Shown in pieces: positions 6,133-13,695 of a stretch of 30,625 bases of DNA (the first letter of the stretch is position 1; each line of letters opens with the position of its first letter). Origin of the DNA: Nanoarchaeota archaeon (GTDB lineage: Archaea > EX4484-52 > LFW-46). The notes beneath the pieces are model-generated. The model was not told where the DNA came from, did no database searches, and was given only the letters and a program-made list of their open reading frames with translations. Location: positions 1 through 30,625 of the forward strand of contig JAHILE010000027.1 in NCBI GenBank assembly GCA_018897155.1, in the 5' to 3' direction. A program made the translations under genes and the position numbers.

Positions 6133-7230
6133 TTATGCTTTAACAAATCGGCTCTTGTATTTTGGAGATATGAAATATCTATAGGTTCTGCCCTTTCTTT
6201 CGCGTATTATGATTCTATCCCTCTCAAGCCTGCGAAGTATGTTATTCACCGCTCTCAAAGCATGTGCATCAGACTGATAGGCAGAGCCTTCAATATCTGA
6301 TGTCTTTTTGACAATATCTGACGGCGTCATATGCCCGTTCTGCCCCACGAGTTCGATTATTCTGATCTGCTTATCAGTCAGCATATTCAGCGCGTCAGCG
6401 ATTCCGTCTGCACTATCAATCATCGCGGATCCGGAATCAGTAATTTCCGGTTTTGTAAAATCACTTAAGTAACTACGATCAATTATTGAAGCTCCTTTTT
6501 CTATTGCTTTGTGCACTATATTATTGCAGACCTTAAGTATTTCGCGTGGAGATCCGCCGCTTAAGACATAGATTTCATTGAGAGCATCAAGCGTGAAAGG
6601 CTCAAGAGTTCTTCCGCCAACGCTCACTATTCTTTTCTTGACAAGCTCGACTGACTCATCTTTGCTGAATGCCCGAAGCTCTATATCAGCTGTCACACGC
6701 TGCGAAAACGTCTCAAGTGTCTTAAGGTGCTCTTCCTTAAGTTTTGGAAGCGCTGCAAGAATAAGAGTCACGCCGTTAACCTGTTCAATAATGGATCGAA
6801 GCCATGCGAGCATCTCAATATCAGTTTCATGTGCTTCATCAATCAATATCACGGTTCTTTTGCCTTTCAGCTTATTGTTCAAGTGCTCGGAAATATTGAA
6901 CGCATCAATTGATTTGTTATCAAAAAGCCTGTGAAAAATCGACGGGTATAATATATTCGACTTTAAAATACAGACAAGTTCTTCTTTTTTAACTGGCGGC
7001 TTTGGAATATACAAGCAATCGTATTTATTGGCAAGATATTTCATAAGGGTTGTTTTTCCCGCTCCCGTAGGTCCTGTAATAATAATGTATTTCTGCCCCT
7101 CCTCAATGCTGTTTTCAACTGTGTTGAGCTGGTCTGTGCGCCCAACAAACAAAGAATGAGAAATATCAAGAGTAAACGGGTTTTTAGTCCAGTTGTGTTC
7201 TGAGAACCATAAAGATGCTTTAGACAACAT
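6133..7230 (-). CDS. AAA+ ATPase with C-terminal winged helix
   Basis: The protein has 365 residues. Walker A is GPTGAGKT (53-60) and Walker B is VILIDEAHE (127-135), followed by a sensor-like stretch (TLILAALPK) and GGSPREI in the sensor 2 region. The layout is closer to ExeA/TniB/MuB-like ATPases (AAA_22 type) than to Orc1/Cdc6, whose GDARRA motif is absent. Residues from about 285 to the end form a winged helix (LTDKQIRIIELVGQNGHMTPSDIVKKT, then a basic wing GRTYRYF), suggesting DNA binding. It begins at ATG 7230, downstream of a TATA-like box, with a perfect palindrome between the two, so it may regulate its own promoter. It is divergent from thpR. The precise role is unknown. Confidence 0.82.
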   Translation of the reverse strand: MLSKASLWFSEHNWTKNPFTLDISHSLFVGRTDQLNTVENSIEEGQKYIIITGPTGAGKTTLMKYLANKYDCLYIPKPPVKKEELVCILKSNILYPSIFHRLFDNKSIDAFNISEHLNNKLKGKRTVILIDEAHETDIEMLAWLRSIIEQVNGVTLILAALPKLKEEHLKTLETFSQRVTADIELRAFSKDESVELVKKRIVSVGGRTLEPFTLDALNEIYVLSGGSPREILKVCNNIVHKAIEKGASIIDRSYLSDFTKPEITDSGSAMIDSADGIADALNMLTDKQIRIIELVGQNGHMTPSDIVKKTSDIEGSAYQSDAHALRAVNNILRRLERDRIIIRERKGRTYRYFISPKYKSRFVKA

Positions 7231-8348: not shown

Positions 8349-10070
8349 TTAATTCAAGAATTTATTTGAATGTCGAATATCAACTGCAACCCCATATATG
8401 AATGAAGCCATTTCACGTGAATTAAAAATCGACGTCCCTGTTGCAAGAAGCTCATTTTTACTTCCGAGAACAAAAACCTCATCACCCACACGTATCCGTT
8501 CATCCGCAGAAGCAACAAATTTAGAAAAAAGATTCTTTCCCTCACGCACGAATTGCTCTACATCTTTGTTCACGTGAACAACGTACGTGCCTTTAAGGTA
8601 TTTAAGAATATCTTTTGCAAACATGAATGTCGGAATGAAGTATCCGTCTGAATCCCTGAATGTTCCAAGAAGCGCGCCTTTATAACTTATCCTTTGGAGA
8701 CGCCCGGTATTTCTTGAAAGCTCGATTTCAGTATATCTTTTTATCAGTTTTTTTGCGCGCGAAAGCTTTATGCCATACTGGTATGCAATTATTTGGCGCG
8801 CGGCTTCTACCGGTTTTATTGTACCTGATTTCCTGTGCTTTGGAACAACCGACTGGCCGAAAGGATAAACCATTTTAAGCCCTAATGGAACTTTTATTCC
8901 AAGCCAATTAAATGTCTCAGATGTCTTTGGAAACTCCGCCTGCTTAAGCTTGTCCTTCACGCGAAAAACAATGGGTCGCTGCATACTTTCCTTTCCAAGA
9001 TAAAAGAATGCGTGGCCCGGCGAAACAGGCTCGTTTGTTTCGATAAACTTACGGTATTTCCCTAGTGTAGAATATGCTTCAAGAAGCGCAGGATGACTTC
9101 GGATGCGCTGCTCTACAAGCTCCCAAAGACCTCCGTCATAAATCGCTTCGCGCACAGTCCTTATTTCCTCAAATGTTGCGTAAAGATTGTGTTTTGCAAG
9201 CAAAGAGGCGTCGCCCACGAGTTCACGCGCGCTATTTTCGCTGCACACTGGGCACGAGCAAGGAAGCTCGTGAAGTTCACTCGCGGTTCTTGTACCATTG
9301 ACCGTAAGGTATCTTCCCTGCCTCGCAAATATTGCATAAGCTGCAGAATCAAAAAAATCAACGCCTATTGCGGCAAGAAGCGAGAATATCATCGGATGCC
9401 CTGCCCCGAATGCGTGAACAGGCTTCGATGGATCAAGATTCATTTTCGCAGTAAGTATTGAATCGACAAGCTTTGAAAAGCGGTATTGTTCCATCAATGG
9501 AACTATTCCGCCGACCGCGAAAACATCAGGATTTATTTTTGAGACTTCAAGAGCGGCTTTTTTTCGCAAATCCATAAATGCGCCGCCTTGAACAGGGCCG
9601 CAAAGAAGCTGGTCTTTGACATTTTCCCTTGCGCTTTTGAGGCGAATAAGCGTTTCTTTTAGCTTTTCGCGCGCGATTTGTTTTGAATCGTTAGGAAGTG
9701 TAAACAAATCAAGCGGAGTAATGATGTCAGAACCTATTTTTTTCTGGAACTCAAGGGTTTCCTCTGGAGTTATCTCGAACTTCCCTTGCGAATACATCTG
9801 GAATGTCCCTGAATCCGTATATATCGGCCCGTTCCAGCCATAGAATTTATGCACGCCTTTTTTCTCGATTTCTTCTGCGTGCTCAGAGTTTTTCATAATA
9901 TATGCGTTTGTAATTATGATTTGGGCCCCTATTTTTTTGATATCCTCAATTGAAACGATGCGCGAATTCGGCGTGACGACAACAGCAAGTGTTGGCGTAG
10001 TTATTGCGTGCTTTCCTATAGTCCACTTGCCGACGCGGCCTGATGCACAGCGAGCCTTTATTTCAAACAT
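8349..10070 (-). CDS. tgtA: Archaeosine tRNA-guanine transglycosylase (arcTGT)
   Basis: The enzyme exchanges guanine-15 of tRNA for preQ0, the first tRNA-bound step of archaeosine synthesis. The protein has 573 residues, full length for the archaeal family. The TIM-barrel catalytic half shows YTDSGTFQMYSQGK, DIITPLDLFTLP, CGPVQGG, AVGGIVPLME and HAFGAGHP, and a zinc site follows with CSCPVC. The C-terminal part ends in a PUA domain (RIRVGDEVFVLGSKNELLATG). I start it at ATG 10070 (MFEIKARCASG), where family homology begins, rather than at an upstream in-frame start near 10196. A TATA box 26-34 bases upstream supports a nearly leaderless mRNA. It is divergent from the RaSEA-ArcS fusion, which supplies the next steps of the same pathway. 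Confidence 0.96.
   Translation of the reverse strand: MFEIKARCASGRVGKWTIGKHAITTPTLAVVVTPNSRIVSIEDIKKIGAQIIITNAYIMKNSEHAEEIEKKGVHKFYGWNGPIYTDSGTFQMYSQGKFEITPEETLEFQKKIGSDIITPLDLFTLPNDSKQIAREKLKETLIRLKSARENVKDQLLCGPVQGGAFMDLRKKAALEVSKINPDVFAVGGIVPLMEQYRFSKLVDSILTAKMNLDPSKPVHAFGAGHPMIFSLLAAIGVDFFDSAAYAIFARQGRYLTVNGTRTASELHELPCSCPVCSENSARELVGDASLLAKHNLYATFEEIRTVREAIYDGGLWELVEQRIRSHPALLEAYSTLGKYRKFIETNEPVSPGHAFFYLGKESMQRPIVFRVKDKLKQAEFPKTSETFNWLGIKVPLGLKMVYPFGQSVVPKHRKSGTIKPVEAARQIIAYQYGIKLSRAKKLIKRYTEIELSRNTGRLQRISYKGALLGTFRDSDGYFIPTFMFAKDILKYLKGTYVVHVNKDVEQFVREGKNLFSKFVASADERIRVGDEVFVLGSKNELLATGTSIFNSREMASFIYGVAVDIRHSNKFLN
8412..8581. other. Two further TTCACGTGAA palindromes inside tgtA
   Basis: The 10-base palindrome of the ATPase operator recurs at 8412-8421. 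It recurs again at 8569-8578 inside a 16-base perfect palindrome TTGTTCACGTGAACAA (8566-8581). Both are in the PUA-encoding end of tgtA. They could be decoy or looping sites for the same regulator, or coincidence of codon choice. Confidence 0.35.
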
Positions 10071-10080
10071 AATAACTGGA

Positions 10081-10104
10081 TTATTAATAATAATGTTTAT
10101 ATAA
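10081..10104. promoter_or_regulatory. Shared divergent promoter region of tgtA and the RaSEA-ArcS gene
   Basis: TTTATATAA (10096-10104) serves tgtA on the minus strand, about 30 bases before ATG 10070. TTATTAATAATA (10081-10092) is placed for the plus-strand start at 10114. Only 43 bases separate the two ATGs, so the two promoters overlap and expression of the archaeosine genes may be coupled. Neither gene has a Shine-Dalgarno sequence, as expected for leaderless mRNAs. Confidence 0.5.
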
Positions 10105-10113
10105 TACAACATT

Positions 10114-11556
10114 ATGAGTGCCGATGCCAAACATTCTGAGAAAGTCATAATCCTAGAATCCGGAAAATGTTCGTGGGGCAAATGCATTTTCTGCAATTTT
10201 GGAAAAAATCATGCCGCTAAACGCGGCAAGCTTTTCAATCCAATGCGAAATGAAATGATTGAAAAAAAAGTTCCAATGCTTGATTTAAGTGTATTTAAGG
10301 AACGGATAGAGCGCGCCGTCAATGGCACAAAAATCGATACGCTGAAATTTTTCAATTCCGGAAGCTTTCTTGATGAAGCGCAGATTTCGGCAAAAATGCG
10401 GCGATTTCTTTTTTCAAAATGCGAAGAAACAGGCATAAAAGAGCTTATTGTAGAATGCCGCGCAGAGCACGTGACTGAAATGAAGCTAAATGAACTAAAA
10501 CATGAACTTGAAGAACTTGGAAAAAATACACCTAAGCTGACTTTCGCAATAGGCCTTGAAGTAGCAGACGATGCAGTTCTGAAAAAAATACAGAAAGGAA
10601 TGACTCTTGCGCAATATGAACGCGCAGAAAAAGTTATCAGAAAAACAGGTTTTGGCGTCAGAACCTACCTTATGGCAAATCTGCCTTTTGTCGGAAATGT
10701 GGCTGAATCACTCGATAAGTCCGTGAATTACTCGCTCAAGCACTCAGATTCAATCGCAATAATCAACGCCTTTGCATATGGATACTCGCCGCTTTTTGAA
10801 ATGTGGCTTGAGGGCTTGTGGCACCCCCTTAACAAAAAAGAATTTGACGCGCTTGTAAAAAAGTACAAAAATAATAAAAAAATCAATATCTATTTCGACG
10901 ATTATATCACATATACGAAATTCCCTGAGAATCTGCAGAAAAAGCTTGTCGGCGTCGGCAACGAATACATCATGCACCCTTATTTCAATGTCTGGCAGGA
11001 ATACCTTTCGCGATTTTACGAAATCCCCGAAGGTAAAAAATACGCGCTGTTCCTGCCGTGCAGCTTCAGAAAACCGTATTCCCAGTCAAAGACGCACCGC
11101 GAAATCCTCCGGCACCTGACAAAACTGCGCCAGTATCCGCTGATTCATCAAATCATGATTTCAAATCCCGGAGTCATCCCGCGCGAATTCGAAAACAAGT
11201 ATCCCTTCGCGCACTACGACTGGCAGGAATGGCTTGAGACGCCGCAGATAAAGAAAGAATATATCGAAGCGACGCAAAATAGGATTAAGAAGTATCTTGC
11301 GGCGCACAAGTACGCGGCTGTGTTTTCATACATGAAGCCGACATCAGAAAGCTTTATTGCGCTGAAAGATGCTTGCGAAAAACTAAAGATTAAACTAATC
11401 TCTTGCGTTGATGAGAAAATTTTCACCGAACTAAAAAATACAGAAACAGGACTGATAAAAAGCGCAGAAGACGATAGAGAAACATATGAAAATCTGCTCA
11501 TAAACCGGAAAATGCTTGATAATTTAGTTGAAGTTTTAAGAAAAAATCTAAAATAA
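10114..11556 (+). CDS. RaSEA-ArcS fusion: radical SAM archaeosine enzyme joined to the archaeosine synthase core
   Basis: The protein has 480 residues in two halves. The N-terminal half is Elp3-like radical SAM and resembles RaSEA. It has cluster cysteines at 19, 24 and 27 (CSWGKCIFC, spacing Cx4Cx2C), then LKFFNSGSFLD, IVECRAEH, IGLEVADD and RTYLMANLPFVG. The C-terminal half carries PCSFRKPYSQSKTH at 315-328, an exact fit to the ArcS signature PCx3KPYx2Sx2H, within the DUF5591-like core. In known systems ArcS attaches lysine to preQ0 in tRNA and RaSEA cleaves that adduct to archaeosine, as two separate proteins. Here both activities appear to be on one chain. The TGT-like and PUA domains of ordinary ArcS are absent, and tRNA recognition may rely on the adjacent TgtA. 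The M24 peptidase gene follows 17 bases later. Confidence 0.85.
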   Translation: MSADAKHSEKVIILESGKCSWGKCIFCNFGKNHAAKRGKLFNPMRNEMIEKKVPMLDLSVFKERIERAVNGTKIDTLKFFNSGSFLDEAQISAKMRRFLFSKCEETGIKELIVECRAEHVTEMKLNELKHELEELGKNTPKLTFAIGLEVADDAVLKKIQKGMTLAQYERAEKVIRKTGFGVRTYLMANLPFVGNVAESLDKSVNYSLKHSDSIAIINAFAYGYSPLFEMWLEGLWHPLNKKEFDALVKKYKNNKKINIYFDDYITYTKFPENLQKKLVGVGNEYIMHPYFNVWQEYLSRFYEIPEGKKYALFLPCSFRKPYSQSKTHREILRHLTKLRQYPLIHQIMISNPGVIPREFENKYPFAHYDWQEWLETPQIKKEYIEATQNRIKKYLAAHKYAAVFSYMKPTSESFIALKDACEKLKIKLISCVDEKIFTELKNTETGLIKSAEDDRETYENLLINRKMLDNLVEVLRKNLK

Positions 11557-13080: not shown

Positions 13081-13695
13081 TTAGTTACTTTTTTTGCTAG
13101 AAATCACTATAAAACCGATAAGACCATCCCATATTTTCTCAATAAACGCTTCATTTCTCGGTTTATTATACCAAAATGGATCGACTAATGTTACTATTGT
13201 TTTTTGCTCTTCGGTTTTAATGCTCTCAATCACATTATCATGACCTGCCATCCATTCGGGCAGAAACCATTTCTTTTTTGAGCTTGGTTTTTTGTGAACC
13301 TTAAACGTTTCATATTCTATCCAAAGATCGTTGTTTTTTGATAAATTATCCGATATGAACTTTTCCAAGTCCAGTATATCTGAAGCCCTGAAGGACTTCG
13401 CTATTAAAGGAATCTTTTTCTCTTTGAAGAATTGATTTATAATTTTTTCAGATTCAGTAGTTTTCATGCCGCCGTCACTTGATGTGGCATAAACGCCCAA
13501 CTTCACATTAAAAGAATCTGCATCATCTTTGCTGACCTTTATTTTGAAATATTTTGCCAGTTCTTCTTGATCAAAAAGCCCAAAGCCTCGCCTATAAAGT
13601 ATCATTTGCAAAGAAGTAACACAGCAACAGCAAGGCCTTTGAACCAATGAAATATATTTTGGGTTTAACGCTATCTTTTTTTCTAATTTTGCCAT
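13081..13695 (-). CDS. Putative papain-like cysteine peptidase (C39-like)
   Basis: The protein has 204 residues. The N-terminal segment VQRPCCCCVTSLQMILYRRGFG resembles the Q-x(n)-CG-x-x-S/T-L helix start of C39-like peptidases, with the candidate nucleophile among Cys22-25. A His in GHDNVIES (His152) and an Asp in LVDPFW (Asp172) are spaced as the other two triad members, in the order and context of C39 domains (G-H-x-V, then D-P). The four consecutive Cys are unusual. There is no signal peptide, ABC transporter or peptide precursor nearby, so a bacteriocin-processing role is not supported. It lies in the AT-rich stretch and may be horizontally acquired. The family assignment is by pattern only. 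Confidence 0.5.
   Translation of the reverse strand: MAKLEKKIALNPKYISLVQRPCCCCVTSLQMILYRRGFGLFDQEELAKYFKIKVSKDDADSFNVKLGVYATSSDGGMKTTESEKIINQFFKEKKIPLIAKSFRASDILDLEKFISDNLSKNNDLWIEYETFKVHKKPSSKKKWFLPEWMAGHDNVIESIKTEEQKTIVTLVDPFWYNKPRNEAFIEKIWDGLIGFIVISSKKSN

Follow-up and report, generated by a model that had tools for sequence, protein, structure and literature searches.

The closest described system is that of T. kodakarensis, in which preQ0 insertion by TgtA is followed by the addition of lysine by ArcS, and RaSEA turns the adduct into archaeosine (PMC11298593). This ArcS must be complexed with RaSEA in order to transfer lysine, and ArcTGT does not co-purify with the pair; an L-shaped tRNA is not essential to ArcS, although the D-arm is of help, and with the nucleoside as substrate the Km, 433 uM, is very high (PMC11298593). 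The ArcS of M. jannaschii has been reported to use NH4+, Asn, or Gln, according to a report as it is cited in PMC11298593. Full-length ArcS proteins have TGT-like and PUA parts, and separate RaSEAs usually have a cysteine-rich C-terminal tail of the form CxxC...CxC.

Here we describe a gene in which the same two catalytic families occur as one polypeptide, in the order RaSEA then ArcS core, whereas in T. kodakarensis they are two; the ArcS signature is the same, and TgtA is likewise encoded in the genome. The gene lies in a 30,625-nucleotide stretch of archaeal DNA, referred to below as the window. LFW-46, a near relative (L038), has been placed in GTDB phylum EX4484-52, which is one of the DPANN lineages and is limited in its biosynthesis (PMC8561730), and the source archaeon itself, with a 96% complete genome of 1.43 Mb in 62 contigs (G000), is tiny and probably host-dependent.

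One reading frame with RaSEA-like and ArcS-core halves

The frame at 10114-11556 on the forward strand is open for 480 codons from an ATG start and encodes a 480-aa fusion of a RaSEA-type radical SAM half with an ArcS-core half, as recognized by Pfam and NCBIfam HMMs and by alignment; we annotate it as a predicted single-chain archaeosine synthase. The radical SAM half (residues 8-262, 10135-10899; HMMs and structure match) contains a Pfam Radical_SAM match above cut-off (residues 19-191, 30.9 bits), and its top NCBIfam model is RaSEA, TIGR01210 (residues 10-215, 89.7 bits, E 1.9e-25). The next radical SAM family, MnmL, scores 30.3 bits and Elp3 28.0 bits, which rules out either identity for this half and upholds the original prediction that it is RaSEA-like. 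The ArcS core, or DUF5591, half (residues 281-445, 10954-11448; HMMs and structure match) gives a Pfam DUF5591 match at residues 294-433 (77.9 bits against a cut-off of 26, E 9.8e-22), and the NCBIfam ArcS models NF053620 and NF040592 are its best families (residues 281-450, about 78 bits, under cut-off). Both halves thus stay below the equivalog cut-offs of NCBIfam, with 89.7 bits against 212 for TIGR01210, where profile positions 16-206 of 313 are aligned, and 77 bits against 440 for the full-length ArcS equivalog NF040592, as is expected of partial, diverged members of these families.

The motifs of both halves stand where the original prediction had placed them. Cys19, Cys24, and Cys27 form a CX4CX2C cluster motif (10168-10194) that differs from the common CX3CX2C; this spacing recurs in every fusion examined and is variable among separate RaSEAs, and the three cysteines, along with many further positions in the radical SAM half, do not vary among 26 aligned fusions. 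PCSFRKPYSQSKTH at residues 315-328 (11056-11097) is an intact ArcS signature, PCx3KPYx2Sx2H, identified by motif inspection and alignment, and among the fusions examined only one genus (L028, L031/L134, L032) departs from this signature, with H in place of the P. All 26 aligned fusions match both archaeosine enzyme families, TIGR01210 included. Pfam and NCBIfam HMM searches found neither a TGT-like nor a PUA domain in the chain, again as predicted, and the CxxC...CxC tail, which by analogy may bind metal, is present in 0 of 37 fusions versus 20 of 23 separate RaSEA-like proteins. The region of residues 31-55 (10204-10278) includes an insertion of about 20 residues that the alignment shows to be missing in 25 homologs, and predicted confidence (pLDDT) is low there.

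The structure model of the whole chain is confident overall (pLDDT 87.3, pTM 0.83). Residues 292-480 match AF0587 (PDB 2q07; Z 15.1, rmsd 2.2, 137 residues), a 306-residue chain that has the same DUF5591-type fold and motif but no radical SAM domain. For the radical SAM half, the top structural match is queuine lyase (PDB 6p78; Z 19.0, 212 residues, rmsd 3.0, 21% identity), which resembles it in the radical SAM fold, in CX4CX2C, and in a 7-deazaguanine side-chain substrate, but is a stand-alone queuine salvage enzyme whose sequence similarity (profile match of 50.5 bits) is far weaker than that of RaSEA. The solved structures that matched include no RaSEA, so this enzyme may be no more than the nearest relative with a structure.

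The tgtA neighbor and the supply of preQ0

Directly beside the fusion gene and divergent from it, in agreement with the original prediction, lies tgtA (8349-10070, reverse strand, ATG at 10070), whose 573-aa product is by HMMs a complete archaeosine tRNA-guanine transglycosylase (TIGR00432, 480 bits) with TGT, C2, and PUA domains. The two start codons are separated by a 43-bp intergenic region (10071-10113), in which inspection of the sequence finds a TATA-like TTTATATAAT at 10097-10106, at about the right position for a leaderless tgtA; a promoter common to both genes, as the original prediction has it, is a guess. The same divergent arrangement with tgtA is seen in families f1, f3, f7, and f31. 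The LFW-46 relative has an ORF of about 170 aa (L038:4260-4980) between tgtA and the fusion, in place of the window's 43 bp.

No separate RaSEA, other ArcS, or second DUF5591 gene was found in the 96% complete window genome, where a single RaSEA-type match exceeds 30 bits and the remaining matches of the ArcS search are to the tgtA gene. Across 34 genomes of the window's phylum, searched at E 1e-8, separate ArcS or RaSEA proteins were likewise not found, and what matched besides fusions and their fragments were partial radical SAM proteins of 33-61 bits. A complete separate pair elsewhere, which would have counted against the original prediction, is thus rejected for the window's own genome and, at that threshold, for its phylum.

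Neither QueC, for preQ0 synthesis, nor a Vut_1 transporter was found in the window genome, and strong QueC matches within the phylum are confined to G033, G027, and G017. De novo synthesis of preQ0 is rejected here since the organism's own genome lacks QueC, and salvage of preQ0 from the host is plausible. Elsewhere in the window, a 204-aa protein (13081-13695, reverse strand) has no convincing Pfam or NCBIfam match, its start PCCCCVTSLQMIL appearing peptidase C39-like by eye, and an AAA ATPase (6133-7230, reverse strand) resembles the XrtA/PEP-CTERM-associated ATPase model at 69.9 bits, below cut-off.

Distribution across archaea

A profile built from 26 full-length fusions was searched over 393 archaeal genomes and found the fusion in 48. 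It is a single full-length frame in 45 of these, a class defined by one frame that spans the profile wholly or almost wholly, and in the other 3 it is either cut at contig ends (G022, G023) or carries an insert (G007). The classes are separated by a gap in score, with fused proteins at 525 bits or above (45 genomes) and separate RaSEA or ArcS proteins at 174 bits or below. Fusion-bearing families in this survey number 6 within the window's phylum plus 14 more, and a survey of a second phylum, in which 23 of 27 genomes match, most of them at full length, added 1 more. The total comes to about 21 families of small-genome archaea, from at least two phyla. TgtA is encoded in 45 of the 48 fusion genomes versus 222 of the 345 others (Fisher p 7e-6, kinship not corrected).

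Origin of the fusion and its unfused counterparts

In a tree of the radical SAM half that leaves out the long-branched G336 protein, one branch parts fused from separate proteins with support of 100/99 and is present in all 200 bootstrap trees; with that very long-branched protein included, support for the same split is 46. The tree of the core half also places the fused proteins on one side of a branch, with weaker support of 81, and groups the short stand-alone cores with the C-terminal half of the fusion against the full-length or PUA-bearing ArcS proteins (support 99). These trees are unrooted, and a single fusion event would be their simplest reading.

Core-only forms of ArcS also exist unfused, which means that fusions are not alone in having lost the TGT-like and PUA parts. 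The short proteins of G055 (L040), G336 (L088), and G062 (L044) consist of the core only, with no TGT-like domain, as in the fusion, and in G055 and G336 a radical SAM gene lies upstream and overlaps the core gene while remaining separate from it. G055 has the gene order Vut_1-family transporter, RaSEA, ArcS core, and its RaSEA keeps the cysteine-rich tail that the fusion is without; this arrangement may resemble the state that preceded fusion. The radical SAM protein of G336 lacks the tail, and its pair of genes could represent either a pre-fusion state or a later split.

Other arrangements of these genes were also seen. The TgtA of G055 (L115:702-2378, forward strand; TIGR00432, 576 bits) has a C-terminal DUF5591 domain (389-549, 91 bits) without PCx3KPYx2Sx2H, in the genome that has the unfused RaSEA and ArcS core. 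A stand-alone DUF5591 core of 238 aa with intact motif (L044:1450-2163, forward strand) is found in G062, of family f33, which also encodes full-length ArcS and RaSEA, and other f33 genomes likewise show three matches. In G112 (L086), a short ArcS, RaSEA, and tgtA are consecutive on the same strand in an operon-like arrangement, with the enzymes unfused.

A predicted single-chain archaeosine synthase

The best families and the intact motifs of both halves, the absence of stand-alone partners from the genome, the conservation of the fusion, and its co-occurrence with TgtA support the original prediction of one chain that joins the lysine-transfer and lyase activities, and we consider it very likely, from sequence, that the fusion is a minimal single-chain archaeosine synthase. 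TgtA would insert preQ0 at position G15 of the tRNA. Lysine would then be joined through an amine to the nitrile of preQ0 by the ArcS core at the C-terminus, after which the RaSEA-type radical SAM domain at the N-terminus would cleave the lysine adduct, leaving archaeosine's formamidine group. From these similarities we infer that the fusion carries out the two-step chemistry of T. kodakarensis, on tRNA and in that order. ArcS in that organism is active solely when bound to RaSEA, a dependency that would predict a fusion of both subunits, and the single chain would be a permanent form of the two-protein complex of other archaea, made of its alpha (lysine transferase) and beta (lyase) subunits. 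It would dispense with the TGT-like and PUA parts of ArcS and with the cysteine-rich tail of RaSEA; loss of the former would be tolerable because T. kodakarensis ArcS does not require an L-shaped tRNA. A more elaborate model, in which two proteins make up the whole pathway after preQ0, with TgtA serving as a tRNA-holding platform for a fusion that has no TGT-like or PUA parts of its own and the adduct passed between active sites within the chain, strikes us as doubtful.

Several features count against the synthase reading, namely the scores of both halves below their equivalog cut-offs, the lack of QueC and of a Vut_1 transporter to supply preQ0, the absence from the fusion of the extra ArcS domains that could bind tRNA, and the resemblance of its radical SAM half to queuine lyase, an enzyme with another 7-deazaguanine as its substrate. 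The last two would be accommodated if the fusion acted on something other than preQ0-tRNA, such as free preQ0, a nucleoside, or a queuosine-type base, with a queuine-lyase-like radical SAM half. At the sequence level, however, RaSEA leads all other families by a wide margin, the structural match may reflect only which relatives have been solved, and the ArcS-core motif is that of archaeosine synthases. The near-constant company of TgtA, adjacent in four families, and the very high Km for the nucleoside in T. kodakarensis also argue for tRNA, and we judge another substrate to be improbable.

The report on M. jannaschii ArcS raises a different prospect, that the core uses ammonia or glutamine directly and that the radical SAM half has some other role or is vestigial. 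This is difficult to reconcile with the invariance of the three cysteines and of many other residues in that half, no separate RaSEA was found to replace it in the genome or, at E 1e-8, in its phylum, and M. jannaschii itself possesses a RaSEA, such that we give this prospect very little credence. The assembly is fragmented and probably metagenome-derived, which might suggest a chimeric assembly or a gene-calling artefact, but the same fused frame occurs in 45 genomes of many families, and the window protein is 39-75% identical to the 25 further full-length fusions aligned with it. This conservation rules out a chance or assembly join and refutes an artefact, the probability of which is negligible.

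Implications

No prior description of the fusion was found in the literature searched, which was mainly open-access, and the original 2019 RaSEA paper could mention it; we provisionally regard the fusion as undescribed so far. If it is the archaeosine synthase predicted here, small-genome archaea, for which the literature searched describes no ArcS/RaSEA route, would gain a predicted complete archaeosine route. The fusion would also mark out the smallest set of parts that is apparently sufficient for an archaeosine synthase, which implies that catalysis needs neither the TGT-like and PUA parts of ArcS nor the cysteine-rich tail of RaSEA. A single chain is also an easier target for solving the active sites for lysine transfer and for cleavage in one structure.
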